NCBI GenBank assembly: GCA_016185945.1 | Contig: JACPMR010000015.1 | Span: 133,256 to 197,255 of the forward strand | Direction of reading: 5' to 3' | Length of the DNA: 64,000 bases | Source: Candidatus Woesearchaeota archaeon | GTDB lineage: Archaea; Nanobdellota; Nanobdellia; Woesearchaeales; GW2011-AR4 | In this document: piece by piece, positions 5,391-61,420 of the stretch | Numbering within the stretch: the first letter of the stretch is position 1 | Layout of the letters: each line of letters starts with the position of its first letter | The notes under the pieces: generated by a model | Told to the model about the DNA's origin: nothing | The model's input: only the letters and a program-made list of their open reading frames with translations | Databases searched by the model: none | Program-made: the position numbers and the translations under genes

Positions 5391-5540
5391 TCAATCACGG
5401 GGCTTCCTAGGCTCTCTCCTGACAATCATAGGAGACCTGCCTTTTCGGTTGTGCTTGAAAGTCCAACAGAATAGCACTTCACTCACAAACGAGTTACCTT
5501 TTTACTGCTTACATATAAAGGTCGTTCCGTGTTTGTTGAA
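5391..5540 (-). repeat. Modular intergenic element, copy 1
   Basis: Terminal TCAATCACGG (5391) is matched imperfectly by CCGTGTTTGTTGAA (to 5540). The + strand reads an arm of the TTCCT...AGGAGACCTGC type, a hairpin GTGCT...AGCAC, then an arm of the ACGAC-CTTT...AAAG-GTAA type in reverse. Its first arm (about 42 bp) differs by one base from the arm in the copy at 33461-33615. It lies in the divergent gap upstream of the AsnB-like gene. Confidence 0.85.
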
Positions 5541-5609
5541 AATTTTGTTAATTATTTTTAGTGTTTCTGAATCTAAACCTTTTTAAAAAATACAAAAATC
5601 CATTATTTT

Positions 5610-6518
5610 ATGACACAAGTTTTGGGCGTTGTAAAGGAAGGCAAGCTTATTCCAGAAGATTTATGGATAAAGTTTGTAAATAGATTGGAGAATGATTTTG
5701 ACAATCTTGAGACAAACCAAGAAAGGGCAAAAAGGGAGCTTGCAAGAGTAATAGTTGAGGCAGTCAAAAAAAGGGTTGTGCCAAAATTCGGGATTCTATT
5801 TAGCGGAGGTGTAGATAGTTCATTAATTGCTTTTGTTGCAAAACAGCTTAAATGCAGTTTTACTTGCTATACGGTTGGCATTGAAGGCTCTGATGATATT
5901 GCATGGGCAAAAAAGGTGGCAAATGAATATGGGTTTAATCTCAAATATAAGATGTTAAGCTTGTATGAATTTGAAAATGTCTTGAAGAATGTTGTCAAAC
6001 TGCTGAATGATGTGGATATTGTTAAAGTTAGTGTTGGCTCTGTTTTGTACGCTGCCGTAAAGCTTGCATTGGCAAATAACGATAATGTCCTTTTTGGAGG
6101 GCTTGGAAGCGAAGAGATATTTGCAGGCTACCAAAGGCATCAAGATGCTTTGGGCAACAACAATTTTGAGGCGCTGCATAAAGAGTGCTGGAATGGCTTG
6201 AAGCAGATGTGGGGCAGAGATTTGGCAAGGGATTTTACAATTGCAAAAGCACTTGGCTTGGACTTAAGGACGCCATTTCTTGACAAGGATTTGATAAAAA
6301 TAGCCATGAACGTGCACCCTATGTTTAAGCTGGATAAACAAAATAAAAAAATAATATTAAGGGAAGCTGCAGAATTCATTGGATTGAAGAAGGAGTTTGC
6401 ATGGAGGAAGAAACAGGCAGCCCAATATGGCAGCAATTTTGTCAATGGAATTGAGAAATTGGCAAAAAAGAATGGGTTTAAGATGAAGAAAGAGTATTTA
6501 ATGAGTTTGTTAAGGTGA
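5610..6518 (+). CDS. Asparagine synthase-like ATP pyrophosphatase domain protein (no glutaminase domain)
   Basis: 302 residues. The PP-loop SGGVDSS (about residues 69-75) and GGLGSEEIFAGYQRH are hallmarks of the asparagine synthetase C-terminal domain, which adenylates a carboxylate before amide transfer. LDLRTPFLDKDL and a late Lys-rich segment also match. The usual N-terminal glutamine amidotransferase domain, with its Cys at position 2, is absent, so ammonia would have to be free or come from a partner. Short archaeal homologues of this shape exist; the true substrate is unknown. A TATA-like TTTTAAAAAATAC lies about 25 nt upstream of the ATG, fitting a short or absent leader. Confidence 0.75.
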   Translation: MTQVLGVVKEGKLIPEDLWIKFVNRLENDFDNLETNQERAKRELARVIVEAVKKRVVPKFGILFSGGVDSSLIAFVAKQLKCSFTCYTVGIEGSDDIAWAKKVANEYGFNLKYKMLSLYEFENVLKNVVKLLNDVDIVKVSVGSVLYAAVKLALANNDNVLFGGLGSEEIFAGYQRHQDALGNNNFEALHKECWNGLKQMWGRDLARDFTIAKALGLDLRTPFLDKDLIKIAMNVHPMFKLDKQNKKIILREAAEFIGLKKEFAWRKKQAAQYGSNFVNGIEKLAKKNGFKMKKEYLMSLLR

Positions 6519-6540
6519 TTTTTAATTAAAAATAAAATAA

Positions 6541-6625
6541 TTTCAATCTGTTCGCTTCGCTCACAAAATTTACTGCTCGGGCTCGCTGTCCTGCCACACG
6601 CTCGCCCTCGCTTATACATTTAATA
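6541..6625 (-). repeat. GC-rich intergenic element, group B short copy
   Basis: This GC-rich island starts TTTCAATCTGTT and ends TGCCACACGCTCG, then TATACATTTAATAA. The complement of 48336-48494 has the same two ends with a longer middle. It separates the AsnB-like gene from the DUF371 gene and contrasts with the AT-rich surroundings. Confidence 0.6.
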
Positions 6626-6628
6626 AAA

Positions 6629-7042
6629 ATGATCTACAAATTTATTGCTTACGGACATCCAAACATTCTAGCAACTCATAAAACAACGCTGGAGTTTACA
6701 AAAGACAAAGTATTAAGCTTGAAAGGAGACTGCATTGTTGGGGTTAATGCTGATTTTGATTTAAATGAACTGAAAAAGTTTATACGAAAATCTAAAAACA
6801 ATAAAGTTGCAATAAAAATTCAATCATCAAACAAAAAATTTCAAGAAACTATAAACGCACAGATTAATCCGAAATTCAACAGCAATAAGGAATTAGTCAT
6901 AAGAAAGACGGATTTCGTGTCTGAAAGGACTTTTGCAATAAAGTCGAATAAAGCTGCTTTTGAGGTGAATAGAGATTTGATTGAATTTTTGAAGGTGAAA
7001 GAAAACAGAATAATTATTGTTTTTAAAAATAAACAAATCTAA
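6629..7042 (+). CDS. DUF371 family protein
   Basis: 137 residues. The N-terminus AYGHPNILATHKTTLEFTKD followed by LKGDCIVGVNADFDL is the signature of archaeal DUF371: a conserved GHPN, a TLE strand and GDCIxGV. The family is nearly universal in archaea and small, but its function is unknown to me. Full length, no membrane segment. It follows the group B repeat and begins 4 nt after it, so its promoter may lie in or upstream of that repeat. Confidence 0.8.
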   Translation: MIYKFIAYGHPNILATHKTTLEFTKDKVLSLKGDCIVGVNADFDLNELKKFIRKSKNNKVAIKIQSSNKKFQETINAQINPKFNSNKELVIRKTDFVSERTFAIKSNKAAFEVNRDLIEFLKVKENRIIIVFKNKQI

Positions 7043-7074
7043 AAGAAAAGTAAATTAATTTTGGGTTATTGTGA

Positions 7075-7905
7075 CTATTTTATTTTGGTAAGCGTACTAT
7101 CTCTAACAACTTTTGAAGCTAATCTACCTACAATTTGGCTAATTAAGGCAGCATTTTGATGTGTGTTAAATGGCTTACGTAACGCCCATATAGCATAAGA
7201 ATAGGCTTGTCGCTGTAGATCTATCAAACCTATAGGCCATTGAGGTGCTTGTTCAAAATAACCTTTAAAGTAGCTTTCCAATAACTTTTGAAGATATATA
7301 ATTGCCTTATCATTTCCTCCAGATTGAAGAGCTGTCACTAAAATTGATGTTGGGAGAACTACAAGGTTCTTATGTGTCTCAACTTCCCCAAAAGATTCGA
7401 AATCAATTAATTTCATTTCAAGTGAGCCATTTGGAACCATCACATTTTCGTCTATAAAATCCTCGACCATTCTCACATTATACGAGGCGCCACTTCTCTC
7501 TATTGTGGCACCATGAACACTTCTTAATTTTCTTCCTAATTCCCTGCAGAGGCCTTCTAGTTGTGTGTATAATCTATTAAGTTGAATTTGAGAAACATTG
7601 GAATGAACATTGGCGCCTAACATACTTTGCAATGTTATTATACCCTTAACTAATTCGTCTAATCTTTGGTGATTGCTTAAGAATTCGTACTGTATAATTA
7701 ATCTATCTGGGTGTATGCCTATTCTTGCTGGAACAGGAAAAAAATGTCTTAGGAAATCGTATCCTGCTATCTCCCCTTGAAATCCAGTAACGTCCCTAGT
7801 TACAAATGGCTCAGTACTATAAAGGATAGGACTACAATATCTAACAAAACTTTTTTCAAACGCTCCCCCTTCTACTCTTGTATCATGTCTTGTTTGCGAA
7901 ACCAT
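7075..7905 (-). CDS. Diverged kinase-fold (aminoglycoside phosphotransferase-like) protein
   Basis: 276 residues, ATG 7905. No clear family, but the layout recalls a protein-kinase-like fold: GEIAGYDFL could supply the helix-C Glu, a helix with LGRKLRSVHG follows, then EDFIDENVMVPNG resembles the catalytic loop HGDxHPENVLV, and KLIDFESFG resembles the DFG/DFE metal site. No glycine-rich loop is obvious. If active it would phosphorylate a small molecule or protein. It is divergent from the TyrRS-receiver gene at 8239, sharing a 333-bp control region. Fold assignment is inference. Confidence 0.5.
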   Translation of the reverse strand: MVSQTRHDTRVEGGAFEKSFVRYCSPILYSTEPFVTRDVTGFQGEIAGYDFLRHFFPVPARIGIHPDRLIIQYEFLSNHQRLDELVKGIITLQSMLGANVHSNVSQIQLNRLYTQLEGLCRELGRKLRSVHGATIERSGASYNVRMVEDFIDENVMVPNGSLEMKLIDFESFGEVETHKNLVVLPTSILVTALQSGGNDKAIIYLQKLLESYFKGYFEQAPQWPIGLIDLQRQAYSYAIWALRKPFNTHQNAALISQIVGRLASKVVRDSTLTKIK

Positions 7906-8238
7906 TTTTATTTAAAATAGTTATTCTCATTGAATAACCATTATTTAAATCTTTTGTTTTTTAACTACTAAATAGTCAAAAATGAAAAATATTAACACAT
8001 AATTTCCATATTGAAAAATATATTTATTATTTATAGACTAAATAGAAAGATTTAAAAGTTAAATAATCCTTTATACACAAAAGGGGCATTGCAATTTAGG
8101 TTCTTAGGAAAAGTGAAAAGATGGTAGTTAGATGTAAGAATCAAAAGTGTCTAAAATAATCAGTGAATATTAGTACTAAAAAGTAACAAAAAAAGAAAAG
8201 CTTTTTAAACGAGGATAGGTAACTGCTAATAAGAAGAT
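7906..8238. promoter_or_regulatory. Divergent control region with dyad and ACTAAATAG repeats
   Basis: No gene. A perfect 7-bp dyad GTTATTC-TCATT-GAATAAC (7920-7938) lies 15 nt upstream of the leftward ATG and just downstream of a TATA-like TTTAAAT (about 7943-7950, other strand), where an operator would overlap the transcription start. ACTAAATAG occurs at 7967-7975 and 8037-8045, with a near copy at 8175-8183. For the rightward gene a TATA-like CTTTTTAAAC lies near 8201-8210, about 28 nt before ATG 8239, suggesting a leaderless mRNA. Confidence 0.45.
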
Positions 8239-10413
8239 ATGGTAAGGGAAAATGGTGTTAGTGCTGTAATAGGGGAGTTAAGTGCCATCAAAGGTACTGA
8301 TTATGTTAGCCTTCTTGCCGATAAATTTGGGCCCAGATTTGAAGAATTTGTTGGGGATTTGCAAAGACAACTTGCAGGGGCACTACCTCAAAAAGTAGTA
8401 CAAAGAACAACTGCAAGAGTTCTTGCTGGCTTAGAAACAATTGTTGATGATATGATTGCCCATGTTGGTGCTATAGAAAGAGGAATAGCATGGGTTAATT
8501 CTGATTTTGACTTATATGTAGCTTATGTTAGAATGAAGTCTAATGATGTCCCTGAATCACTAAGGCTCAATCCAAGCCAACATAATGTCAAGCTTGGCAT
8601 GGACCCTACGAATGATAGTCTACATTTAGGGCATTTGGTTCCTTTAAGAAAGCTTAATGATTTTGCAAGGCTTGGTTATAACACAGTTGCGCTACTTGGA
8701 ACTTTTACTGCAACTATTGGTGATCCAAGCGGCAGAAATGAGGCCAGACCACCTTTAAGCGAAGAAGAAGTAATGGCTTACGCAAGAAGATTTGAAGAGC
8801 AATTAAGAAGAATATTGGTTGACGGCATGCGAATAGAATATAACCATAAGTGGCTTACAGAGTTAACTGCTGCAGATTTAATTAGAATTGCAAATGGGGT
8901 GAATGCTAGCACCATTGATAGCAGGCCGGATTTTTTACAAAGAAAAAGAACAGGTGGGCGTATTTCTTTTGCAGAGTATATCTATCCACTACTTCAAGCG
9001 TATGATTCTGTGGCTCTAAGGGCATTATTTGAAATAGGCGGAACTGACCAAAAGAGAAACATGTTAGTTGGCAGGGATTTACAGCGTTATGTGGGACAAG
9101 AAGAGCAAGGTTGTATTGCAATGCCGTTGTTGCCCAGTATTGATGGAGTAACAAAAATGAGCAAAACAAATCCAGATACCTGCATATTTTTGAAGGACGA
9201 ACCCAAAGACATGTATGGCAAGCTGATGCGTATTCCTGACTTCTTGATGCCCCTATATTTTGAATTATTAACAGACAGAAGTATAAATGATATTGATGCG
9301 ATGAAAAGGGCACTTGGCGAGATGGGCCTCATCGCTCAACAAGGTGCAAAATTCGCAAGGCATTTTAAAATAGGTGATTTAACTGCCAGCAGAACTGAAT
9401 TGCTAAATATAATTAAGGAAGAAGAAAGAAGGTATACAGGTTCTGTTTTGATATACACCCCTGCTAGAATGAGGGGCATAGTAGAGCAGCTTGTCACAAA
9501 GCTTAGCGAGGACGGTTTCTTTGTCAGGACTGTTAGCGCATTACCAGAAGCGCAAAGAGAGTTTAGTAGCAGAGAGTATAGTGTTTTGATAATGGATTTG
9601 TCTGCTAAAGGAAATTATGATGTATTAAGAACGTTAAGAGGGATGAACAAGGACATTGGAGTTTTAGGCTTAAGAAGTGAAAATTCTAGATTAACAAATG
9701 GTTTGCAAACTCGTTTAATGAGTGATTTGAATGTGTCTCAAGTCTTTCCTGTCTTAAGCGAGCAAATGCCTGATGTGATAATAAGGGTTATTGGTTCAGT
9801 TTATAGAAATTTGCCAAGAGGCGAAAGTAGAAGAAAAGATGTAATAAGCGATTTGCAACCTTTGATATTGAGAATAGAAGGTGCACTAAAAAGATATGTT
9901 ACACAACGAGATTATTCAATTAGGGTAAGTGGAGGTAGATTTGAAATTTTAGGCAACAATGAAGAAACCCAAAAAGCAATAGACATGCTTAAGGGAACTG
10001 AAGATATGAGTGAAGGATACCATCCAATGATGTTAAAGCACGACCTTGCTTATAGAGTTGTAAGTCAACTTCATGGAGAAGATGCTACAAGGGCTGCAAG
10101 ACAACACTTTGAAACACAATATCAACGAAGAGGTTTGACTGAAGATTTACCAATCTATCAAGTTCCTCCGTCACTTGTTCAAGAGGGTGGTGTAAACATG
10201 CTTGATTTAGTAAGGGCTTTAAGAGAAGGTGTTAGTAACTCACAAATAAGAAGATGGAGTGATGAAGGCGCTTTGAGAATTAGGCTGCCAGAGGGGAATG
10301 ATTGGAAACGGGTAAAGTATGATCACGTCATACCAGTTTCAGATTTAGAGAGAGTTGCTGTGAAAATAGGAAGAGGGTCGTACAGACTTGCTTACCAACC
10401 GCCACAACAATAA
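8239..10413 (+). CDS. Tyrosyl-tRNA synthetase (TyrRS2-like) with receiver-like insertion and N-terminal extension
   Basis: 724 residues, far longer than the usual 400 or so. Residues 1-110 are an unfamiliar helical extension. Residues 115-390 are a class I TyrRS core: LGMDPTNDSLHLGH (HIGH motif at 129-132), GDPSGR, GGTDQ (267-271) and KMSKT (306-310, normally KMSKS). Residues 401-525 read like a CheY-type receiver with Asp452 at the end of strand 3, but strand 1 lacks the acidic pair. About 65 further residues lead to YHPMMLKHDLAYRVVSQLHG (593-612), the normal TyrRS linker, and an S4-like C-terminus (645-715). So the extra domain interrupts a synthetase. It may charge tRNA-Tyr under control, or have another role. 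Confidence 0.75.
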   Translation: MVRENGVSAVIGELSAIKGTDYVSLLADKFGPRFEEFVGDLQRQLAGALPQKVVQRTTARVLAGLETIVDDMIAHVGAIERGIAWVNSDFDLYVAYVRMKSNDVPESLRLNPSQHNVKLGMDPTNDSLHLGHLVPLRKLNDFARLGYNTVALLGTFTATIGDPSGRNEARPPLSEEEVMAYARRFEEQLRRILVDGMRIEYNHKWLTELTAADLIRIANGVNASTIDSRPDFLQRKRTGGRISFAEYIYPLLQAYDSVALRALFEIGGTDQKRNMLVGRDLQRYVGQEEQGCIAMPLLPSIDGVTKMSKTNPDTCIFLKDEPKDMYGKLMRIPDFLMPLYFELLTDRSINDIDAMKRALGEMGLIAQQGAKFARHFKIGDLTASRTELLNIIKEEERRYTGSVLIYTPARMRGIVEQLVTKLSEDGFFVRTVSALPEAQREFSSREYSVLIMDLSAKGNYDVLRTLRGMNKDIGVLGLRSENSRLTNGLQTRLMSDLNVSQVFPVLSEQMPDVIIRVIGSVYRNLPRGESRRKDVISDLQPLILRIEGALKRYVTQRDYSIRVSGGRFEILGNNEETQKAIDMLKGTEDMSEGYHPMMLKHDLAYRVVSQLHGEDATRAARQHFETQYQRRGLTEDLPIYQVPPSLVQEGGVNMLDLVRALREGVSNSQIRRWSDEGALRIRLPEGNDWKRVKYDHVIPVSDLERVAVKIGRGSYRLAYQPPQQ

Positions 10414-10471
10414 ATAATTTTAAATTCCAAATCATAAAGCATTTTAAAAGTTTGTCTTGCATTCTATTTCT

Positions 10472-10936
10472 CTAATGGCTTTGGGGTATAATAACCCTCC
10501 TCGTCTTCCCCACATAATTCAAAACCCTTCCATTAGAGTATTTTCCTGTTCCTAGAAAATCTTTGTTGTGCTTTAAAATAACAAAACCCTTGCAATCCTT
10601 GCATTCTTTTTGCAAATCTTCGCCTCTGAACCATTTCCTTGTTTCTTCTTCATTCAATTCAACAACATTCTTTGTCGCCTTTGTGCCTATAATCTGGCTT
10701 CCTTCTATGCTCAATCTTATTCCTAATTTATCATGCTCGCAAAAATACATTCCGACAGAGTTAAGGCGAAGCTTTGAAGTGTCAATTTTGGAAATGTCTT
10801 TGCTTATTACAAAAACTCGATTTTTGTTGTTTTTCAGGAAGCCATAATCTAACTTTATTTTAGCGCCCCATTGGTTTTCTATCATTTCAAGGATTTGTTT
10901 TATTTCTTTGTTGTTTAAGATTTTTAATTCTGGCAT
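10472..10936 (-). CDS. Standalone PUA-like RNA-binding protein (RsmF/NOL1 C-terminal type)
   Basis: 154 residues. The sequence runs LRLNSVGMYF, IRLSIEGSQIIG, ATKNVVELNEEE, W-x-x-GEDL, then GFVILKHNKDFLGTGK and LNYVGKTRRVI. This matches the PUA-like domain that ends RsmF/NOL1-type rRNA and tRNA methyltransferases, where it binds RNA, but no methyltransferase domain is attached. Archaeal genomes often encode it alone; it may assist a separate m5C methyltransferase or ribosome assembly. A Cys pair (KECKDCKG) is unusual. The next upstream gene on this strand is aIF5B. Confidence 0.75.
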   Translation of the reverse strand: MPELKILNNKEIKQILEMIENQWGAKIKLDYGFLKNNKNRVFVISKDISKIDTSKLRLNSVGMYFCEHDKLGIRLSIEGSQIIGTKATKNVVELNEEETRKWFRGEDLQKECKDCKGFVILKHNKDFLGTGKYSNGRVLNYVGKTRRVIIPQSH

Positions 10937-10973
10937 TTTTATTTGGTGATTTTGATTTAATTAAAATTTAATT

Positions 10974-11145
10974 TTTCAATCTGCCTGCGGCGCATATTAG
11001 TGCGCCTCGGCATTCAGACGTTGAAGTAGCTTTCCTTTGTGCTTCCCCTCGGCGCCTATTTATTGGAACCAGATAGACAAACATTCCTGAGCTGGGCTCC
11101 CATATCGCGCTTGCTGATATTGGGAAGCGACGTTATTTTTGATTT
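10974..11145 (+). repeat. Modular intergenic element, copy 2 (GC-rich left arm)
   Basis: It starts TTTCAATCTGCC and ends in GGGAAGCGACGTTATTTTTGA. The right arm CTGAGCTGGGCTCCCA...TTGGGAAGC is shared with the copies at 32257 and 54133. The left arm is GC-rich (GCGCATATTAGTGCGC) and aligns only with the complement of 54133-54308. It lies between two leftward genes, the PUA gene and aIF5B. Confidence 0.85.
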
Positions 11146-11204
11146 AATTTTTATTATTGTTTTATTTCATTATTTGGATTTTTATTTATAATTTAATATC
11201 TATT

Positions 11205-12965
11205 TCAAATCCCCCACATGGGATTATTATTTCTCATTATCTCTGCTATCTCCTTCAATATTTCTATTTCCTCCTGTGTCAAATATTTCTTAAATTCCTT
11301 CAGCTTTTTGAAATGCCCTTCTGGAATTGCAGAGTAAAGAATGTCCTCCTCATGAAGCTGTCTTCCTATTGTTACATTCGGCAATGAAACTGCTACTTGC
11401 TTGCCTTTCTCTGCTTTTTCAATATTTTCCTGCTCATGCTGTATACTTTTTGCTTCTGTTATTACAGTTCCGTCTTTTTTCATCAATGGCAAGTCTGTTT
11501 TTAATGTGCCTGCCAGTACTTCAACACCGACAATTGCAGGATTGCTTTGTCTGAAAACATAACCCTTAAGCAGCTTGATTTTACATGGCTTAATAAGATA
11601 CTCTATTTCTTTTGCCTCAATCTTTTTCCTTTCTTCCTGCTGCCATTTCTCGAAGTCTTCCATAAGCTTGTAAATGATATTGCTTGTAATCACCTTAATG
11701 TTGCCTGCCTTTACTTCAGACATAGGCTCGACGTTAAATCCAAGAATCACGCCTTGCAGGACATCTTTTTCGTAGCTTGCCTCTGCATCAGTAATGTCTT
11801 TTTTGGATATATTGCCGATTGATGCCTTTCTTATTTCAATATTTTTCTCTTTCAAAATTTTTACAAGTGCTTCCAATGAGCCAAGAGAATCCGCTTTTAT
11901 CACAATTCCTTGTTTGTCTGTTTCTATTACAACTTCTTCTACTTCTTTTTTTATCTCCACCTTTACTTTTTCAATTTCATCAGGTAAGCAACTTCTCAGA
12001 GGCATGCCTGCAACAACATTGCCAAGCTCAGGAGATGCAATCTTAACACCTGTTGCTGCCTTGACTTCTTTTACAGACTTGAATTTTGCTTTTTTGTCGC
12101 GCATCTCTGCCAGTGGCACTGGCTCAAACAACGCCTTAACCTTTGTGACAATCGGCTCGGTTAGAGAGCCAATCACAATAATATCGTTTTGCTTTAGAGA
12201 GCCATCATAAACAATAACCTCAATTGTTGTGCCTAGCCCTTTTTCTTCCTTGACTTCAAGGACTGTGCCTTTTGCACTGCCTTCAACATTCACTTTAAGG
12301 ATTTCTTCAAGGAATCTTTGCGACAACCCAACCATTACCATCAACAATTCAGGCAATCCTTCGCTTGTCTTTGCAGAAGTGGGTATTATTGCTATTTGCT
12401 TTGTATAGTCCTCTACCCTGTCGAATCTTTCAGAATTAAAGCCTAGCTCGCTTAACTTCCCAACAACCTCGTAAAGTTTTTTTTCGAGAAGAAGCATCAC
12501 ATTTTCATTTTGCTTTTGTATGTTTTCCAGCAAAGTTAGTTCTGATTTTGAATTCCAGCCAGGCAGCAAGTCAATCTTGTTCAATGCAATGACAAAAGGA
12601 GTTTTGTATTGTTTTAGTATGTCTATGCATTCCAAAGTTTGATGTTTGATGCCTTCATTTATATCTATAACAAGAATTGCTATATCGGCAAGATTACCGC
12701 CCCTTTTCCTCAGGTTAGTGAAGGCGGCATGCCCTGGCGTGTCAAGGATGATAAAGCCAGGAATTTTTAGTTCAGTTTTTGCCTTCTCAATCAGCTTGCC
12801 ACAGATTTTCTTTATTGTTGAAATTGGTATTTGGGAGCAGCCAATGCATTGAGTTATTCTGCCCGGCTCCGACTCGACAATAGCGGTGCTTCTAATTGTA
12901 TCCAGCAATTGAGTTTTTCCAGAATCTACATTTCCTATTACTGTGATGATAAGCTGCCTTAGCAT
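11205..12965 (-). CDS. infB: Translation initiation factor aIF5B (IF-2)
   Basis: 586 residues from ATG 12965; a TTG nine bases upstream is less likely. It is the GTPase that joins ribosomal subunits with initiator tRNA in place. The G1 loop reads GNVDSGKT (residues 11-18) where the family normally has GHVDHGKT, and switch I reads GRITQCIGCSQIP rather than GxITQHIGA. DTPGHAAF (G3) and NKID (G4) are intact, so it should still be an active GTPase. Domains II-IV follow, with KADSLGSLEALVKIL marking domain III. Length fits archaeal aIF5B. The following gene on the other strand is Trm1. Confidence 0.95.
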   Translation of the reverse strand: MLRQLIITVIGNVDSGKTQLLDTIRSTAIVESEPGRITQCIGCSQIPISTIKKICGKLIEKAKTELKIPGFIILDTPGHAAFTNLRKRGGNLADIAILVIDINEGIKHQTLECIDILKQYKTPFVIALNKIDLLPGWNSKSELTLLENIQKQNENVMLLLEKKLYEVVGKLSELGFNSERFDRVEDYTKQIAIIPTSAKTSEGLPELLMVMVGLSQRFLEEILKVNVEGSAKGTVLEVKEEKGLGTTIEVIVYDGSLKQNDIIVIGSLTEPIVTKVKALFEPVPLAEMRDKKAKFKSVKEVKAATGVKIASPELGNVVAGMPLRSCLPDEIEKVKVEIKKEVEEVVIETDKQGIVIKADSLGSLEALVKILKEKNIEIRKASIGNISKKDITDAEASYEKDVLQGVILGFNVEPMSEVKAGNIKVITSNIIYKLMEDFEKWQQEERKKIEAKEIEYLIKPCKIKLLKGYVFRQSNPAIVGVEVLAGTLKTDLPLMKKDGTVITEAKSIQHEQENIEKAEKGKQVAVSLPNVTIGRQLHEEDILYSAIPEGHFKKLKEFKKYLTQEEIEILKEIAEIMRNNNPMWGI

Positions 12966-13051
12966 TTTAACCAAGACAAAGTAAGAGTAATATATTTTTA
13001 AAGTTATGTATGTAAGAAAGCTTTTTATTGGAATAAAAGTTATTTGTTATT

Positions 13052-23058: not shown

Positions 23059-23087
23059 TTTAGTTAAGTACAATATCAAATATAAAA

Positions 23088-23140
23088 ATTCAAACACTTG
23101 GAGACCCATGCACTTCCACGAAGTAAAATGGGTGCCCCTT
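23088..23140. repeat. Solo arm of the modular element (copy 9)
   Basis: ATTCAAACACTTGGAGACCC and, after a loop, ATGGGTGCCCC reproduce the terminal motif plus the GACCCA...TGGGTGCCCC arm of the copy at 45365-45522. The central GTGC hairpin and second arm are absent. It lies directly upstream of the promoter of the gene at 23267. Confidence 0.65.
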
Positions 23141-32256: not shown

Positions 32257-32410
32257 TTTCAAACAATACGAGCTTCCTTTGAAAGCAAGCATAATGAAGG
32301 AGACCTGCTTTTGATTTGGCACTTTTAAGCCAAGAAATATAGTGCCACTTTCCTGAGCTGGGCTCCCATATCACGCTTGCAGATGCTGGGAAGCGAAGTT
32401 GATTGAAATT
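32257..32410 (+). repeat. Modular intergenic element, copy 3
   Basis: Ends TTTCAAACAA and TTGATTGAAA. Left arm TTCCTTT...AAGGAGACCTGC, central GGCACT...AGTGCC hairpin, right arm CTGAGCTGGGCTCCCA...TGGGAAGC. The left arm is shared with the copy at 41157 and the right with the copies at 10974 and 54133. It fills the divergent gap before TYW1 and ends 36 bp before its start. Confidence 0.88.
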
Positions 32411-33460: not shown

Positions 33461-33615
33461 ATTCAATCAACGAGAACGACTTTTGGATTCTCAGCGTGAT
33501 TAAAGTAAACCGTTTGTAATAAATGCACTATATCGGTAGCATTAAAGTGCAAGTAAAATGGCAGGTCTCCTATGATTGTCAGGAGAGAACCTAGGAAGCC
33601 CAAAGTGTTTGAAAA
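33461..33615 (+). repeat. Modular intergenic element, copy 4
   Basis: Ends ATTCAATCAACGAGAACGAC and GTGTTTGAAAATT. Left arm CTTTT...AAAGTAAACCG, central TGCACT...AAGTGCA, right arm GGCAGGTCTCCTATGATTGT continuing to CCTAGGAAGCCC. The right arm is 41 of 42 identical to the arm in 5391-5540. Lies between the convergent TYW1 and phosphoesterase genes. Confidence 0.88.
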
Positions 33616-41156: not shown

Positions 41157-41316
41157 ATTCAAACAAAAACGAGAGCTTCCTTTGGGTTCTAAAACTGAAA
41201 AAGGAGACCTGCTTTGACAGACGCACTATCTATCGTAGCAATCAAGTGCAATAAGAACTGCGAGATATCCATTTTGGTTTATAGAAGTAAATGGGTCGCT
41301 TGTTGGTTGATTTAAA
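41157..41316 (+). repeat. Modular intergenic element, copy 5
   Basis: Left end AATTCAAACAAAAACGAGAG, right end TTGGTTGATTTAAA. Left arm CTTCCTTT...AAAGGAGACCTGC, central GCACT...AAGTGC, right arm CTGCGAGATATCCATT...AATGGGTCGC. The bases after the central hairpin, AGTGCAATAAGAACTGCG, match the copy at 61268 closely. Just upstream, GAGCGACTTTTAG at 41117-41129 is a stray fragment of another arm. Confidence 0.85.
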
Positions 41317-45364: not shown

Positions 45365-45522
45365 AATAATTCAATCACGAGGCGACCCAATAACTGCCCA
45401 GCATTCATGGGTGCCCCGCAGTGATTGTTGCACTTAATCGCTGAACTTTATAGTGCATCATTAAAAGCGGATTACTTTAATCATGCTTACATCTCAAAGT
45501 CGCTCTCAGGTTTTGAATTATT
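45365..45522 (-). repeat. Modular intergenic element, copy 6
   Basis: A perfect 10-bp terminal inverted repeat AATAATTCAA/TTGAATTATT. Read on the minus strand: GAGAGCGACTTT, AAAGTAATCCGCTTTTA, ATGCACT...AAGTGCA, then ACTGCGGGGCACCCA...TTATTGGGTCGC. The core aligns base for base with 61268-61420 at many positions. Lies between Cca and GyrA. Confidence 0.9.
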
Positions 45523-48335: not shown

Positions 48336-48494
48336 TATTGAATGTATAGGCGAAGCCGAGCGTGTGGCAGACAGCGTGTGACATGCGAGTGAGCTCGACC
48401 TGCTTGCGAGAATGCTCGCAAGCTCGCATTCAACAGCGAACTCGCTCACAAGTCACTCGAGCACTAAATGTTGTTGCAAAGCAACAGATTGAAG
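48336..48494 (-). repeat. GC-rich intergenic element, group B long copy
   Basis: On the minus strand it starts CTTCAATCTGTTGCTTTGCA and ends TGCCACACGCTCGGCTTCGC then TATACATTCAATAAA, matching the ends of 6541-6625. Internal hairpins include GTTGC-TTT-GCAAC and CTTGCGAG-AATG-CTCGCAAG. It lies between two leftward genes, ScpB and the small zinc ribbon. Confidence 0.65.
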
Positions 48495-53432: not shown

Positions 53433-53433
53433 A

Positions 53434-54077: not shown

Positions 54078-54132
54078 AAGATTTTTGATTTCTGAGATAA
54101 TTTAATTTATCAATCAATAACATTAGAAAATA

Positions 54133-54308
54133 AATTCAATCACGTCGCTTCCCAGCATCTGCTAAGGTGATGTGGGAGCCCAGCTCAGGAAAGTATCGCT
54201 GGCAGTACCAATAGATTTGCGCGGAGGGGGAGCACGAAGTAATGCTACCTACACAGCAGAATGCCGACGCGCCAAGATATTGTCGTGCGAAGCACGACGG
54301 ATTGAAAT
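54133..54308 (-). repeat. Modular intergenic element, copy 7 (GC-rich left arm)
   Basis: Ends ATTCAATCACGTCG and CGACGGATTGAAAT. On the minus strand the right arm is CTGAGCTGGGCTCCCA...TGGGAAGCGACGTGATTGAA, shared with copies 2 and 3; the left arm has GTCGTGC-TTC-GCACGAC and a GC-rich stretch related to copy 2. It lies between the trio operon and the tRNA gene. Confidence 0.88.
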
Positions 54309-54424
54309 AATAAGTTAATATCAAAATTTTTGCCGCAGGCTGATTGAATTTATTTTTTGAGTATCTTTTTATTCAACCTTATTTTCAGTAACGTTTTTAA
54401 ATCTAAATTCAATCCTAAGTTAAT

Positions 54425-54603: not shown

Positions 54604-54622
54604 TTTATTATTTATATTTAAA

Positions 54623-54775
54623 ATGACAACGCCTAAACAATTTTTTGATATAGGTTTTTCTTTTATTAGAGAATTACCAAAAATAATTATTATAGTGATA
54701 TTAGGGATAATTATTACTCTGGCAGTTTATTTCTTATTAAAACACTTTAGTAATAACCGACCTTCACAACGCTAA
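54623..54775 (+). CDS. 50-residue single-TM protein
   Basis: ATG 54623 lies 19 nt after the tRNA, so the tRNA transcript could carry it. MTTPKQFFDIGFSFIRELPK is followed by a TM helix (about 20-38, IIIIVILGIIITLAVYFLL) and a short basic tail. Positive residues on both sides leave orientation open. No family known. It ends 42 nt before the RNase J gene. Confidence 0.6.
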   Translation: MTTPKQFFDIGFSFIRELPKIIIIVILGIIITLAVYFLLKHFSNNRPSQR

Positions 54776-54817
54776 TTTACAAACTTTTTTAAATCAACTT
54801 CTTTTTTCTGAAAAATA

Positions 54818-56146: not shown

Positions 56147-56195
56147 AACCAAAAATATTTAAATACGATAAGATAACTTCTTTGTGGGGGTAAAT

Positions 56196-56942: not shown

Positions 56943-57040
56943 AGTAAACTCATGCATGACGATTCCATAACTTTTGCCGTTCCTGGAGTGCTTTTGTTTG
57001 CGCAGATCTCTTGCACAATTATGTGTTTATTTACAAATGT

Positions 57041-58549
57041 ATGCAAAAAACTGATGAAGAATTGAAAAAAGAGATACTGAATTTTCTAAAAGAAAATAAA
57101 GGTAGGGTTTTTTATCTTGACGAGCCTCAGAGTGACGAACAGACGAAGCAATTAGATTTCTTAAAAAAGCATTTAAGTGAAATGGTGGCGAGAGGAGAAA
57201 TTATCGCGAAGAATACTGACAGAGGGACAGAATATTCGATACCTGATCCGAATAAAAACAGGTCTCTTAAGATAAACTTAATGATACTTATTCTCGCTAT
57301 CATAGTAAGTTTAATTTTAGGCGAGATTGTGATGAGGATTTATTACGTTAAAAAAAATTGGGTTGTAGGTATTGATGAAGAAGAGAAGTGCAATAGAGAA
57401 ACCTACAGAATATTGATTAATCCCGGCAGTGCCAATAGGTTTAGCCCGCAGCAGCTTATGTTTCACGAATACTGGAATTATTCAAGTGTTCGGCCAGTAG
57501 CTAACTTTAAAGGGAATATCATCTATTACGCGAAAGACGGCAAAAGGGTTTTATTTTACGATGACCCGACTAATTCCCAGCACATGAGGGGTTTTAAGGA
57601 TTACAGCTACATTAAACCGCCCAATACCACAAGGATAGTTGTTTTGGGCGACTCATTTGCTTGGGGTGACGAGTTTCCAGTAAGATTCTCTTTTCCTGCG
57701 GTTTTAGAGCTACTGATTCCATCGTCTGAGGTATTAAATATGGCAATCAGGGGAACAGGAATTGATAATATGTATTTAAGGTGGAAATATGATGCATTAA
57801 ACTACCATCCAGATGTTGTTATTTTCTCCATTTATGTGGGTGATATAGCGAGAGTTAGGCCATGCATATTTAAGCCTAAATTTAAAATAAAAAATGGAAA
57901 ACTGGAAATATCTAATTTGCCTCCGCCCAAGCTTGAAGATATTTTCAAAAATTATAAACCGCCTAAAATAGAAAGCGTCTTATTTAAGCATATGATATAC
58001 AATATCAGGTATGCCGGGGGCATTGAGGAAAAAATGTACGATTATGGATTGGGTATATTAAACCTAATTCTGGATGAAATGAACTCCAAGTCAAAAGAAG
58101 AGAATACTTATTTATTAGTGTTGCTGATACCAGAGGCCAATAATAATCCGATTACGCCTTTAAGAAACAGAGTAATTGAAGAAGTTAAAAACTCCTTAAA
58201 GGAAAAAAATATACCATATGTTGATTCCAGAGGCATTTTTGCCAAGGAATCGTACGACCTTACAGAGGAGAATAATATGCTTTCATTTGACAAAGGGCGT
58301 AAAGTGGGCCACTTTACCCCAAGAGGATATGCTTATATAGCTCAAGGTATAAAGAATAATTTGGAAGAAGCTGGATTAATCAGAAAAATAAAAGATTTTT
58401 ATTTTATTTGGAATCAAAACAACTACAGGCTTTTGGTACAGGACAAGCAAGATAGCTCAAATACTTTTGAGATTATACCCTATGATATAATACCCGATAA
58501 TTTAAATGATTCGGAAGTTCCGCATGTTGAAGTTTGGCGCCAGAAGTAA
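57041..58549 (+). CDS. Membrane-anchored SGNH hydrolase-like protein with N-terminal winged-helix-like domain
   Basis: 502 residues from ATG 57041; the TTG at 57011 is less likely. Residues 1-65 (TDEELKKEILNFLKENKGRVFYLDE, LKKHLSEMVARGEIIAKN) read as a winged-helix-like cytoplasmic domain. TM helix about 78-98. The external domain has VVLGDSFAWGDE, the block I Ser of SGNH esterases, an Asn-containing block (NMAIRGTGIDN) and VGHFTPRGYAYIAQGI with the block V His. It could acylate or deacylate surface glycans; a cytoplasmic DNA-binding-type domain on an external hydrolase is odd. Assigned by motif; substrate unknown. Confidence 0.78.
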   Translation: MQKTDEELKKEILNFLKENKGRVFYLDEPQSDEQTKQLDFLKKHLSEMVARGEIIAKNTDRGTEYSIPDPNKNRSLKINLMILILAIIVSLILGEIVMRIYYVKKNWVVGIDEEEKCNRETYRILINPGSANRFSPQQLMFHEYWNYSSVRPVANFKGNIIYYAKDGKRVLFYDDPTNSQHMRGFKDYSYIKPPNTTRIVVLGDSFAWGDEFPVRFSFPAVLELLIPSSEVLNMAIRGTGIDNMYLRWKYDALNYHPDVVIFSIYVGDIARVRPCIFKPKFKIKNGKLEISNLPPPKLEDIFKNYKPPKIESVLFKHMIYNIRYAGGIEEKMYDYGLGILNLILDEMNSKSKEENTYLLVLLIPEANNNPITPLRNRVIEEVKNSLKEKNIPYVDSRGIFAKESYDLTEENNMLSFDKGRKVGHFTPRGYAYIAQGIKNNLEEAGLIRKIKDFYFIWNQNNYRLLVQDKQDSSNTFEIIPYDIIPDNLNDSEVPHVEVWRQK

Positions 58550-58608
58550 TTTACGTATCTCAATGATGAATCGTTAATTTTATAAATAACTCTTCTAATG
58601 GATTTTGC

Positions 58609-59076
58609 ATGGAGAATAAAGCTTATTCTTATCTGCTTGAGTGGGCGATAAACTTTGTGAAGAACAAGGACATTGTTTCTAAAAAAATCGAAGCCATTGA
58701 GAATGGAAGGAATGGATTTGACTTATATGTTAAATATAAAGACAGAGAGCAGTATTTTTTAATTATTCCTAAAATTGAAGATATTGATTCAATAATACAA
58801 AAAATAAATAATGAAAATTATTTCAGCATTGTAACCCTAAATTCAAAGGAAAATTTTGAGGTTATATTAAAAAATTGGGGTAAGTTAATTGGTTTTAAAT
58901 TCCTAAATATAATTTTTGTCAACCCATTTTCAGAGCTTGATAAGAAATGGATAATCTTTCCACATACCCATCATAAGATATGTGATGAATCGGCTTTGGA
59001 AACCGGATTGAAGTCAATGTTTGGGATGGTTGAGCCGATTGAAGAAGAGCAGTTGGCTGCAAAAATCACAAGCTAA
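58609..59076 (+). CDS. Conserved-looking hypothetical protein
   Basis: 155 residues. MENKAYSYLLEWAINFVKNKDIVSKKI, then DLYVKYKDREQYFLIIPKIEDID, FSIVTLNSKENFEVILKNWGKLIGFKFLNIIFVNPFSELDKKWIIFPHTHHKICDESAL and GLKSMFG. The alpha/beta pattern with a basic and aromatic core recalls restriction-endonuclease-like folds, but no PD-(D/E)xK motif is clear. I recall related proteins in DPANN genomes, without a known function. The stop overlaps that of the convergent lipid kinase by 11 nt. Confidence 0.7.
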   Translation: MENKAYSYLLEWAINFVKNKDIVSKKIEAIENGRNGFDLYVKYKDREQYFLIIPKIEDIDSIIQKINNENYFSIVTLNSKENFEVILKNWGKLIGFKFLNIIFVNPFSELDKKWIIFPHTHHKICDESALETGLKSMFGMVEPIEEEQLAAKITS

Positions 59077-59647
59077 ACAATATCGCTTGTCCAACAAATC
59101 CAGAGAATAGCGGGATTAACAAATTGTCATCAAGCTCATCAACAATGGTTTCCACAATTGTTGCGACAGAAGCCATACCCAATATAACATATATGTTGTC
59201 TAGCACAAAAAATCCGACAATTAAGTTTGTGCCTAATTCTGCAAGAAATCCTGCCCATGTCTTATTTCTATATATGAGGGTTGTGCCGTATCTTTTGCCA
59301 ATTACTGCAGCCACCATATCCCCGAAAGTCGTCATTAGCAATGCTGCTAATGCAATTTTATTATCGAATACGGCAAACGAGATGATTGTAGCTGAAAGAA
59401 AATAAACGACCCCATACATCCTATACTGCTCCTTGGGTCTTATAAAATGCGAGAAAAAGGGTATTTTCAAGTTCAGCTCAAGCCGCAAGTATTCCAAAAT
59501 CAAAAACCCTATCAATAAAGCCACCAGAAACAGCAGGGCAATTTGCTTGCCCATGCTTTGATGGATGAAAAAATAAGCTACCAGAACCAGAAGAATTGTT
59601 ATGTGTATTATCTTCCTGCCAACCTCCTGCACTAAATTCAAAGTCAT
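59066..59647 (-). CDS. Dolichol kinase-like / CTP-dependent lipid kinase, paralogue 2
   Basis: 193 residues, about seven hydrophobic helices. EVGRKIIHITILLV at the start, TTFGDMVAAVIGKRYGTTLIYRNKTWAGFLAELGTNLIVG in the middle (GD, GK, K-T/S with the usual EG replaced by AGFLAE) and ELDDNLLIPLFSG at the end. It shares this plan with the paralogue at 41340 but little sequence outside the motifs. A lipid-alcohol kinase role is inferred from family. Confidence 0.78.
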   Translation of the reverse strand: MTLNLVQEVGRKIIHITILLVLVAYFFIHQSMGKQIALLFLVALLIGFLILEYLRLELNLKIPFFSHFIRPKEQYRMYGVVYFLSATIISFAVFDNKIALAALLMTTFGDMVAAVIGKRYGTTLIYRNKTWAGFLAELGTNLIVGFFVLDNIYVILGMASVATIVETIVDELDDNLLIPLFSGFVGQAILFSL

Positions 59648-59755
59648 AATACAAACTTTTGCTGATAAGTATAAATAAGTTTCTAAAGTATATACTCATT
59701 TCATTTAATATTATTTAGGATAAAATTAAATAGTAAACAGTATATCCAAACAAAC

Positions 59756-59902
59756 ATGCCCCATATAAAACGAGGATGGCACAACCCCTCAAAATATATT
59801 GAACAGACTACAGAAGGAAAATGCCCTTTTTGCCATAAGCATGTAAAATCCTTAAAAGACCATGTGCATGACAAACACAGATTAGAGAAGATAAAGAAAT
59901 AA
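59756..59902 (+). CDS. 48-residue C2H2 zinc-finger protein
   Basis: ATG 59756 opens a frame reading KCPFCHKHVKSLKDHVHDKH, a C2H2 finger with C-x2-C-x9-H-x4-H spacing near residues 23-41. MPHIKRGWHNPSKY forms a basic N-terminus. Single C2H2 fingers of this size are common in archaea and may bind DNA, RNA or protein. The spacing to the upstream leftward kinase gene is about 108 bp. Confidence 0.7.
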   Translation: MPHIKRGWHNPSKYIEQTTEGKCPFCHKHVKSLKDHVHDKHRLEKIKK

Positions 59903-59911
59903 ATTTTAGAA

Positions 59912-60136
59912 TTACCTTTTGCTTCTGGCTTTTCTCTCCGAGACAAATCTTTGTGGCGGCCTTCTGTAGTTTCGCCAGAACTCCCCTATATGCTGTTCAT
60001 CCGTCCTTCTCTCCTTGATCTGCTCTTCTGTCAGGTCTGGAGGGGCTATGGCCGTCATCGTGGGCTTTTCTTTCCTGAACTTCATGTATCTCTCTTTCTT
60101 GGCGCTTATTTTTTTAGGCTTGTCTTTTCTTCCCAT
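59912..60136 (-). CDS. Small basic protein, unknown function
   Basis: 74 residues, very basic (MGRKDKPKKISAKKERYMKF and VSERKARSKR at the end), with a conserved-looking centre MTAIAPPDLTEEQIKERRTDEQHIGEFWRNYRRPPQRF. No membrane segment, so probably cytoplasmic and nucleic-acid or ribosome associated. The opposite strand is open too, but its translation is unlike a protein. Convergent with the zinc-finger gene at 59756. Family not recognised. Confidence 0.6.
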   Translation of the reverse strand: MGRKDKPKKISAKKERYMKFRKEKPTMTAIAPPDLTEEQIKERRTDEQHIGEFWRNYRRPPQRFVSERKARSKR

Positions 60137-60202
60137 AGGGCATTGAAATCAAACTATGTTTATAAATGCTCGCAATGAAAGTATGGCTATCGCTCATCTG
60201 CC

Positions 60203-60369
60203 CTATAATTTGTCAAAATCTATCAAATACTCTTTTTGTGCCATGGATATTTTATCGACGGGCAATCCTCTTTGATATACAAATGTTTTAAAATTCATCA
60301 TACCAAAGGGTATTTCTTGCAATTGTCCTTTTCCATATTGACCTTCGGGATATACACCAAAACTATAAC
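60203..60369 (-). pseudogene. Protein-like remnant downstream of tRNA-Gly
   Basis: On the minus strand the frame is open from the tRNA 3' end to a stop at 60203-60205 and reads FGVYPEGQYGKGQLQEIPF, MMNFKTFVYQRGLPVDKISMAQ and a final KEYLIDFDKL. It looks like real coding sequence but has no start near its 5' end (first ATG 60301), so it is probably the tail of a gene cut by recombination at the tRNA, or a very short gene. Family not recognised. Confidence 0.35.
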
Positions 60370-60441
60370 TACGGCTGCCGGGATTTGAACCCGGGTCTCA
60401 AGCTTGGGAAGCTCGAATGTTAACCACTGCACCACAGCCGT
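60370..60441 (-). tRNA. tRNA-Gly (anticodon CCC)
   Basis: 72 nt, leftward. Acceptor ACGGCTG pairs with CAGCCGT, discriminator A, no encoded CCA. D-stem GTG/CAT, anticodon stem CGAGC/GCTTG, loop TTCCCAA giving CCC, T-arm CCGGG-TTCAAAT-CCCGG. All stems form; the A1-T72 pair is uncommon for Gly. No intron. Confidence 0.92.
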
Positions 60442-60521
60442 ATAAAACAAATAATCAAAACATAATATTTAAATATTTACATCATAAGAAAATTTTTGAT
60501 TTAAAAACAAAAGGTGAGAGC

Positions 60522-60863
60522 ATAGACAAAAACACAGAAATAACAATAAAATGCTACAAGTGCAGTAATGAATACCCAATGACAATGATGAGGATGGATT
60601 CAAACGGCAAGAGCCTTGTATGCAGGAATTGCCTGGAGAGAAAATCGGTTCAAAAGCATGAACTGGCAAAGCCCCAACAAGCACAAAAACAGGAAGAGCC
60701 AGCTTTAAAAGAATATTTCTGCAAGGAATGCAAATACAATTTCAAGAGGGCAAATCATTTGAAAATTACCACCTGCCCGTATTGCAGCTCATCCGGCTCT
60801 TTAATGGTTAAGGGAAGCACAGCAAGAATAATAGCAGACGCTGCCAAGATGAAGGGTGATTGA
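60522..60863 (+). CDS. Two-ribbon zinc protein, start uncertain
   Basis: About 113 residues. CYKC and CRNC form one ribbon, FCKECKYNFKR and CPYC a second. The neighbour at 60926 has the same layout, so this is a paralogue. No ATG, GTG or TTG lies in frame between the tRNA gene and the first ribbon. The in-frame ATG at 60417 sits inside the antisense of tRNA-Gly, and ATG 60579 would cut off the first Cys pair. An AGGTGA at 60512-60517 is placed 4 nt before ATA 60522, a possible noncanonical start. The protein ends GSTARIIADAAKMKGD. Confidence 0.65.
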   Translation: MDKNTEITIKCYKCSNEYPMTMMRMDSNGKSLVCRNCLERKSVQKHELAKPQQAQKQEEPALKEYFCKECKYNFKRANHLKITTCPYCSSSGSLMVKGSTARIIADAAKMKGD

Positions 60864-60938
60864 ATGAATTGCGAAGCAATTCCTTGCTTAGCTTTTTGCG
60901 AATGCAAAAAGGTTGGGGTGATTAGATGCAGGAAGTAA
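60864..60938 (+). CDS. Possible 24-residue Cys-rich peptide spanning a double hairpin
   Basis: ATG 60864 directly follows the stop of the preceding zinc protein. MNCEAIPCLAFCECKKVGVI has four Cys. But its DNA is two perfect hairpins (GAATTGC-GAA-GCAATTC and CTTTTTGC-GAAT-GCAAAAAG), so the frame may be a by-product of structure. It overlaps the next gene start by 13 nt. Confidence 0.25.
   Translation: MNCEAIPCLAFCECKKVGVIRCRK
60866..60911. repeat. Double hairpin between the two zinc-ribbon genes
   Basis: GAATTGC/GCAATTC (loop GAA, 60866-60882) and CTTTTTGC/GCAAAAAG (loop GAAT, 60892-60911). Same paired-hairpin style as at 2424, 20105 and 24410, and the loop context GCGAATGC recalls the hairpin in the group B repeat. 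Confidence 0.55.
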
Positions 60939-61222
60939 TGGTGCCATGCAAGAAGTGCGGCAATAAAGTGCCTGCCTCTTCTTTAAAGCTGGACATTGAC
61001 GAGAAGATGGTTATTTGTCCTGAATGCGTTAAAAGCAAGAAAATACACAAGGAAATACAAGAGGAGGTATTTCATAAGAAAGAAGAAAATAACGCACATG
61101 AAGAATCCGTAAAGAAGGTCGCGCACAAATGCACTTCCTGCGGCTATAAATTCAGGATAAACCCTGAGACTAAAGTGCCAAGAAACTGCCCGTACTGCAA
61201 TGCAAGAGTATTAAGTTTTTGA
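60926..61222 (+). CDS. Two-ribbon zinc protein, paralogue of the preceding gene
   Basis: 98 residues from ATG 60926 (GGGGTGATT just upstream). CKKC and CPEC make the first ribbon; CTSCGYKFRI and CPYC the second, joined by a Lys/Glu-rich linker. Same order as the gene at 60522, including the final CPYCNA. Zinc-ribbon pairs of this kind bind nucleic acid or protein; no specific role is known to me. End at 61222 is followed by a modular repeat. Confidence 0.8.
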   Translation: MQEVMVPCKKCGNKVPASSLKLDIDEKMVICPECVKSKKIHKEIQEEVFHKKEENNAHEESVKKVAHKCTSCGYKFRINPETKVPRNCPYCNARVLSF

Positions 61223-61267
61223 AATTGATAAACAGAATCAATTAAAAAACAATAAATTGATCAATAC

Positions 61268-61420
61268 TCAAACAAAAACGAGAGCGACTTTTAGCTTCCA
61301 TAGGCTAAGAAAGTAATCCGCTTTTACAGAGGCACTTTCGAGTAAAACTTTATAGTGCAATTAGAACTGCGGGGCACCCAATATATTATATGCAGTTATT
61401 GGGTCGCTCGGTGGTTGTTT
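61268..61420 (+). repeat. Modular intergenic element, copy 8
   Basis: Starts CTCAAACAAAAACGAGAGCG and ends GGGTCGCTCGGTGGTTG. GAGCGAC pairs with GTCGCTC at the two ends. Left arm ACTTTT...AAAGTAATCCGC, central GGCACT...AGTGC, then ACTGCGGGGCACCCAATA...TATTGGGTCGC. Near-identical in core to the complement of 45365-45522. Between convergent genes. Confidence 0.9.

Follow-up and report, generated by a model that had tools for sequence, protein, structure and literature searches.

The question raised by a 64,000-nt stretch of DNA from Candidatus Woesearchaeota archaeon, here termed the window, is whether its short intergenic repeats are mobile elements, folded RNAs, or both. A preliminary description recorded eight full copies of a three-hairpin repeat and one solo arm, found no named family for them, and read them as either a mobile repeat like the miniature inverted-repeat transposable elements (MITEs) or a folded RNA with three stems. 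Typing with nhmmer profiles (E 0.05 or better), together with model R1 in the case of the first copy's right arm, confirms that a single dispersed family includes the solo arm and all eight copies with two arms.

By sequence comparison, the elements both spread and are constrained as folded strands, so that each of the two readings is partly right. They are regarded, with moderate confidence, as modular extragenic hairpins of one Woesearchaeota family that resemble the repetitive extragenic palindromes (REPs) and bacterial interspersed mosaic elements (BIMEs), that would spread in trans, and many of which may be kept as intercistronic RNA structures. A host enzyme would copy the hairpins in trans, and many copies would be retained because the hairpins act as intercistronic RNA structure inside polycistronic transcripts, where they may protect the 3′ end of the upstream message or serve its processing. 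In bacteria, REP and BIME sequences have such a role in 3′-end protection or processing of the upstream message. Arms are shared between elements, the elements are dispersed, and their modules differ at sites shared between species. An RNA function is suggested by covariation, strand asymmetry, orientation and flank composition, all of which are indirect.

The home genome (G000) has a size of 1.506 Mb and is 90.7% complete. Arms were counted by profile typing on two of its contigs taken completely, C9 and C3 (630 kb). These have 90 elements in all, of which 58 have two arms and 32 are solo; they lie dispersed, one to roughly every 7 kb, and form no cassette arrays. One copy used as a query yields at least 48 matches in its own genome at E ≤ 1 (40 of 97 candidates scored). 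A pattern for structure alone (5-bp pairing plus a 4-nt bulge) gives 183 matches versus 9 in reversed sequence, in a set made up partly of loci picked for their A arm. Chance is excluded as the source of the repeat family. Most elements are intergenic, as had been described, but 9 of 90 touch an open reading frame (ORF) of at least 80 aa; three of these nine ORFs have a homologue in the fetched loci, and by coordinates homology begins beyond the element in all three. A search of the whole window against Rfam at the gathering threshold gives a single match, a tRNA, and none to the elements, in agreement with the absence of a named family. There is also no Rfam match at E ≤ 1 in loci L046, L067, L082, L091 and window positions 5300–11300, or at gathering in L099, L107, L137, L096 and L193.

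L-numbers denote loci fetched from other genomes, most of them by an exact A-arm pattern in named genomes; the stems of their A arms are therefore uniform by selection and their elements rich in A. Loci L056, L058, L059, L063 and L073 (non-Woesearchaeota), L124–L127, and L128–L147 (genomes already represented) were dropped from the arm statistics. Model R1 covers A, b and B arms, and was aligned from A arms of every third named locus and then from 67 of 74 listed arms; model R2 covers F and was aligned from 38 of 39. The R1 and R2 searches scored a fraction of the candidates from the first look (146 of 1290 in G000, for example), and their copy numbers are thus lower bounds. Both models find further copies in G000 and its relatives, and by most measures the stems covary.

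The hairpin units, of about 55–80 nt, fall into discrete types termed A, B/b, C, D, G, E and F, with compensatory stem change. Types A, B, C, D and G have a common plan of stem, 4-nt 3′ bulge, stem, and a loop of mostly 14–20 nt, which can be written GC-x-NNNNN, loop, N′N′N′N′N′, bulge, y-GC; inspection shows a bulge of 5 rather than 4 nt in G. Types E and F have a stem with tandem GA/GA, a variable paired stem and an apical loop, and outside these there is often a mini-hairpin, C(GNA)G. On the strand continuing from A, F reads GGC-GA-GGC/GCC-GA-GC; its variable stem has double changes in 9 of 11 pairs and its apical loop is partly conserved. Pairing in the A arm reaches outward to CGAGAGCG/CGCUUUUG. 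A, b and B arms terminate in CTTTT; by inspection the other arm types have no T-run. CGAG is found in 79 of 99 A arms. In D arms, e.g. at window 54132–54195, the stem is immediately preceded in 17 of 21 cases by CGTC, which is the tag of one superfamily of REPs. The tag GTAG occurs in one of 12 G and one of 17 C arms, and neither GTAG nor CGTC was seen in the A (99), b (15) or B (6) arms (E and F were outside this test).

A two-armed element consists of two unlike units in inverted orientation. Of the terminal inverted repeats in the preliminary description, a loose outer motif, TTCAATC (TTCAAWC-like), is seen by a permissive pattern in 169 of 296 arms; the arms themselves are of unlike type in 58 of 58 elements. 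Same-type pairs would be expected 9.1 times by shuffling, and a value of zero was reached in 0 of 20000 shuffles. Inverted F-F pairs are common in the congener G004 and in genera g7 and g10, occur in G001, and are found twice in tandem gaps of named loci; by inspection of the loci viewed, their arms differ in the variable stem. With unlike arms, each arm can fold alone rather than form one long palindrome. Between the arms is a gap of 24–44 nt with the GCAC hairpin (>100 nt with inserts), or an E/F unit lies directly beside the first arm at 3–19 nt (12–17 nt in D-E elements). As a consequence the D-E elements at 10974 and 54133 have no GCAC hairpin, so that the central GTGC/GCAC hairpin ascribed to every copy is present in six of the eight. 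The modular three-hairpin plan itself is upheld in the tests made.

Similarity between elements stops sharply at arm borders while the partners differ. For example, the A-C element at window 61268–61420 and an A-F element at G000:C9:239549 have A arms that are 100% identical over 58 nt. Another A arm is common to E-A and A-G elements (54 nt, 100%), and a G arm together with 87 nt of outer flank shows 95% identity over 164 nt between G-C and A-G elements. Other high-similarity pairs of elements have both arms, or an insert, in common. Single arms are thus copied as discrete units between elements with different partners. A separate case is a pair of A arms at G000:C9 293942–294008 and 296331–296397, which are 98.5% alike over 67 nt, in the same direction and 2.4 kb apart; this suggests a recent copy or a local duplication.

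The A arm is carried by at least 84 stretches in named genomes. Among the matches listed, 75 of 80 are Candidatus Woesearchaeota, which bears out the DPANN range that had been proposed; the other five are in other phyla and are taken as chance matches. A strict A pattern is present in 17 of 20 genomes of the genus, with none in the reversed control, and R1 matches 18 of 20 (one with a single match) and none of 16 genomes from ten other genera of the family. Arms of the A type number at least 101 in G000 and 0–36 in 19 congeners. F has a wider range: R2 matches 29 of 36 genomes of the family, including 20 of 20 in the genus, with up to 93 matches per genome. In an order-wide sample with stricter filters, F carriers are 4 of 145 genomes, all of the same family (the 121 matchless genomes are not itemised). 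Viral spread was considered and rejected, the strict A pattern giving 0 matches in viral contigs.

Comparison of orthologous spacers in sister genomes, proposed in the preliminary description, reveals both presence/absence differences and shared sites. Between G000 and other carriers, elements are found in both species in 16 spacers, in the other species only in 9, in G000 only in 7 and in neither in 89. Spacers that bear an element in another species are also filled in G000 in 16 of 25 cases, versus 7 of 96 for element-free ones (Fisher p 8e-9); with spacers of at least 150 nt the values are 14 of 22 versus 3 of 38. The module at a shared site often differs, as three cases illustrate. At site C3 274012, where G000 has D-E, L095 carries A-F and L050 an A arm together with an F-like unit; site C3 177410 has A-E in G000 and A-F in L067; and site C9 144191 has D-E in G000, A-F in L046 and a solo A in L047. 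In the congeners G001 and G002, 11 of 12 sites filled in G000 have no element and one has a solo F, while 26 spacers are without an element in both; a rescan of the G001/G002 loci with the models gives 5 F and 0 A. Four of the empty G001 sites are gaps of ≤5 bp where G000 has 258–322 bp. The size difference exceeds the element, and by inspection the surplus is AT-rich flank.

The stems change in a way that maintains pairing. In A arms 91.8% of cells are paired, versus 86.6% when shuffled and 54.3% at best when slid, and doubly changed cells number 45 versus 13.4. In F the paired cells are 89.4% versus 70.0% shuffled and the doubly changed cells 86 versus 26. Several properties distinguish the two strands. 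Two A-arm positions hold a G.U pair, one in 48 of 66 sequences and the other in 63 of 67, and these would be A.C mismatches on the opposite strand. The C(GNA)G mini-hairpin, with 40 different stems, is present at 66 of 92 E/F ends on the A-continuing (transcript) strand and at 0 of 92 on the opposite strand. Five elements of the A-F or A-C kind each fold into three hairpins on the A strand, enclosed in the element at window 61268 by an outer helix, and the folding energy is lower on this strand in all five, by 5.6–11.4 kcal/mol. (L118:6389–6535, which has an insert in the A loop and was folded on one strand, is excluded from the strand comparison.) The shuffle-corrected z is better on the A strand in three of five (A/other strand: L095 −6.1/−3.6; window 45365 −3.1/−2.3; window 61268 −3.9/−2.6). 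For individual arms, own sense is the better-folding strand in A (83 of 103) and b (9 of 15), and seldom in C (3 of 28) and F (1 of 57). The A strand is thus the better-folding one for A, C and F alike; D does not fit. The folded-RNA reading is borne out to the extent that covariation and strand asymmetry constrain a folded strand.

Orientation relative to genes differs between element types. In tandem gaps, E/F-bearing elements run with the genes 19 to 1 in G000 and 22 to 7 elsewhere (together 41 to 8, p 2e-6), and solo A arms run with the transcript 23 to 4. Occurrence in both orientations, as first described, holds for the symmetric GCAC-type elements, which have no preference, but not for the E/F-bearing ones. 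The median distance from element to gene 3′ end is 75 nt in G000 and 58 nt elsewhere, and A arms are mostly sense. Between the stop codon and the element, the sense strand has 24.4 A-tracts and 3.2 T-tracts per kb, compared with 7.7 and 5.3 in element-free tandem gaps; in other genomes the stop-codon-side flanks have 15.4 and 4.4 per kb. These counts omit elements with a flank of >300 nt. T-tracts end archaeal transcripts. Since they are rare before the elements, the element-bearing gaps look as if they are read through. A replication-linked orientation was also considered, as all E elements within the first 183 kb of C3 have the same direction; it was rejected, since the skew tracks gene strand and C9 lacks the pattern.

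A number of results weigh against the proposal of REP/BIME-like hairpins kept as intercistronic RNA. The A-C elements have no orientation bias (4 to 3), five of seven solo F modules in G000 tandem gaps lie opposite to the transcript (elsewhere two of two are with the gene), and 15 of 90 elements are in divergent gaps. A arms fail two of five covariation measures (6 double-change pairs versus 4.5 shuffled, 14 further pair types versus 14.4), and F fails one of five (21 further pair types versus 21.1). The shuffle-corrected z is worse on the A strand in two of the five elements folded (L082 −4.1/−4.8, L046 −2.2/−2.7), and the window D-E element, the commonest pair type in G000, is no better than its shuffles on either strand (z −0.5 and −0.3). 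Own sense is the better-folding strand in 6 of 21 D, 3 of 12 G and 12 of 25 E arms. At shared sites, arms are not clearly more alike than random ones (0.39 versus 0.34, P 0.13, 7 pairs), which would also be compatible with repeated insertion at favoured sites. The Y1 transposase (PF01797) has no match in G000, the genome richest in A arms; it is present in 18 of 36 family genomes and does not follow F.

The search for a mover covered several enzymes. G015, the genome with the most F, is without PF01797, and G020–G022 carry Y1 with 0–1 F, all in incomplete assemblies. A mover of the Y1 type (RAYT, the REP-associated tyrosine transposase) is not supported by this distribution over genomes, and a reverse transcriptase was rejected, being present in only 5 of 36 genomes. 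A side observation is that G000:C7 2831–3455 has two adjacent partial PF00078 reverse-transcriptase matches, perhaps a split gene. Tyrosine recombinases, found in 17 of 20 congeners, are uninformative, since some of these genomes have no A arms. Both end motifs are present in 23 of 110 elements, and in these target duplications show no clear excess for k 3–9 (lowest 17/300 shuffles, one 8-mer); as the copies look old, this null is weak. By-eye reading of the C9 and C3 arm lists, rather than a systematic or whole-genome search, turned up no long arm-flanked ORF and no parent insertion sequence (IS).

Alternative origins by DNA movement can be weighed on this evidence. A classical MITE would have arisen by deletion from a DNA transposon, and its arms would be the long terminal inverted repeats on which a DDE transposase acts. 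The inverted arms at AT-rich intergenic sites, the variation in copy number (0–101 A-type arms per genome), the presence/absence between congeners, with the near-closed G001 gaps, and the F-F pairs of other genera are all in keeping with it. The classical form, however, is unlikely: arms of the same type are never paired in the 58 elements, single arms are shared independent of their partner, target duplications are not in excess in the elements with both end motifs, and neither an arm-flanked ORF nor a parent IS was apparent in the part viewed by eye. True REP or REPIN elements (REPs in inverted pairs) moved by a RAYT (Y1 HUH) transposase are less likely still. Papers on REPs (PMC3733652) and REPINs (PMC3116915) describe dimers of inverted hairpins, heterodimers among them, and spacers that are structured, and the CGTC of the D arms would be in accord, but the tag is not seen in A, b or B arms, GTAG is limited to one case each in C and G, and the Y1 transposase is missing where the elements are most abundant. 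Integron recombination sites of the attC type can be given hardly any weight. They would explain bulged imperfect hairpins and module exchange, with tyrosine recombinases at hand in most congeners; the elements are nevertheless dispersed rather than in cassette arrays, and a RYYYAAC/GTTRRRY pair near both ends is found in 0 of 110 versus 0.5 shuffled, a weak test.

Other explanations concern the transcript. Bidirectional terminators, spread as ready-made 3′ ends, would account for the short distances from gene 3′ ends, the mostly sense A arms and the CTTTT at the end of A, b and B arms. T-tracts are rare between stop codon and element, however, the remaining arm types have no T-run by inspection, and elements also occur in divergent gaps, so that terminators appear improbable, to about the same degree as the classical MITE. 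A conventional cis-regulatory RNA, i.e. a riboswitch-like leader of the downstream gene, would fit the covarying stem, partly conserved apical loop and strand-locked mini-hairpin of F; it is very unlikely, somewhat more so than the RAYT-moved REPs, in view of the many F matches per genome, the presence of F in convergent gaps too, and the varying module type at shared sites. A tentative further possibility, less probable than the REP/BIME-like proposal and above all of these others, is that the elements are mobile regulatory RNA: exchangeable three-hairpin cassettes between DPANN cistrons, which would occupy the same junctions across species with equivalents swapped (A/b/D first, E/F second). 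If this is true, the genome would have an exchangeable intercistronic RNA punctuation.

The preferred reading, that of REP/BIME-like hairpins, rests on likeness to known families and also departs from them. REPs, BIMEs and REPINs are likewise extragenic, of high copy number and formed of inverted hairpin dimers, here 58 of 90 in 630 kb, and the present elements are mosaic as well and lie mostly in gaps that appear to be read through. Here, however, the hairpin units exceed theirs in size, have long loops and carry either a fixed 4-nt bulge or tandem GA, there is no common GTAG/CGTC tag, G000 has no Y1 transposase, the host is archaeal, and sites are common to species with module swap. Since the tag and RAYT tests failed, the family is not filed as REP/REPIN. 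BOX, RUP, ERIC and Correia/NEMIS elements, likened here by description only, are bacterial, intergenic, modular or imperfectly palindromic, and transcribed. MITEs, including those of Sulfolobus and Halobacterium, are also short, non-coding, placed at AT-rich sites, bounded by inverted ends and moved in trans; they differ from the present elements, where target duplications were not seen, a parent IS was not met in the part viewed, the arms are unlike and sharing is at the level of the arm. The family is accordingly not classed as a MITE either. In the portions of the literature consulted, REPs and REPINs include heterodimers whose spacers are structured, and they lie for the most part between genes that are unidirectional or convergent (PMC3733652, PMC3116915); BIMEs are mosaic in structure, and RAYTs are proposed to be required for the spread of REPINs (PMC3116915). 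The word DPANN is absent from the consulted text of a review that lists archaeal MITEs (PMC10969869). As far as searches show, this would be the first REP/BIME-like system described for DPANN archaea, no such report having been listed by full-text searches in an open-licence library.

An element every 7 kb in a 1.5-Mb genome takes up a large share of the intergenic space. The elements are a candidate for how Woesearchaeota operons are subdivided, and a new enzyme directed at hairpins may be what moves them. Because modules are swapped at shared sites, nature offers an experiment by which parasitic spread could be told from RNA function.

The individual arms of the window, typed by nhmmer and in part also by R1, are as follows. 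The element at 5391–5540 has a B arm (GCTTCCT..AGGAGACCTGC) at 5388–5451 (plus strand) and, at 5478–5540 (minus), an A variant with the compensated stem GACCTTT/AAAGGT (R1, 39.9 bits). The nine places first recorded are real, but two F modules had been overlooked: a solo module at 6542–6623 (minus; R2, 68.5 bits) and one at 48338–48493 (plus; R2, 40.9 bits). Element 10974–11145 consists of E at 10987–11066 (plus) and D at 11080–11140 (minus), and the solo C arm is at 23087–23138 (plus). Element 32257–32410 pairs B at 32257–32319 (plus, also R1) with D at 32347–32409 (minus), and element 33461–33615 pairs A at 33463–33520 (plus, also R1) with B at 33550–33614 (minus). In element 41157–41316, B at 41162–41223 (plus, also R1) is followed by C at 41249–41314 (minus). 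Element 45365–45522 has C at 45367–45430 (plus) and A at 45457–45517 (minus, also R1); its minus strand is both the gene-sense and the better-folding strand. Element 54133–54308 has D at 54132–54195 (plus) and E at 54209–54285 (minus), and outside this E arm a C(GAA)G mini-hairpin and GGATTGAA can be read from the sequence. The last element, 61268–61420, has A at 61270–61329 (plus, also R1) and C at 61358–61422 (minus).

Some further sequences accompany the elements. A conserved non-coding block (GTGGC..GCCAC, CGCTTGCCTTCAT..AACGTTGGGGGTGGTTTTCTAATGAAGGC..) adjoins A-F elements in L099 (~6530–6660), L107, L137 and L098, in L212, and at the end of the spacer G000:C9 74163–74876. It has no Rfam match at gathering in L099, L107 and L137, and may represent a conserved RNA or a leader not yet described. 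Another conserved stretch between genes (GGTGCACGC..GAACACCC..GTAACTGCTGAGCGTGT) is found at G000:C9 214921–215692 and L096 815–1250, with the repeat on different sides in the two species. Some E modules have an outer extension of about 50 nt (TTAATATCAAAATTT.., then GCAGGC, and GATTGAA again), at window 54285–54348, C3 177410 and C3 74611; this extension is itself repeated among elements. A second palindrome family, S1 (GTGAGCGAG...CTCGCATGYCACTG), is present at window 48338–48493, where it is nested in the loop of the F module, at G000:C9 20527, 92746 and 239663, at C3 122474, and at other positions. S1 lies inside or ≤150 nt from hairpin elements in 9 of 11 cases, and a tenth is the one in the F module at window 48338 (R2). 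Another palindrome, S2 (ACGGCAAAGTCCGTTGACACCTTGTG), is inside or ≤150 nt from hairpin elements in four of five cases.

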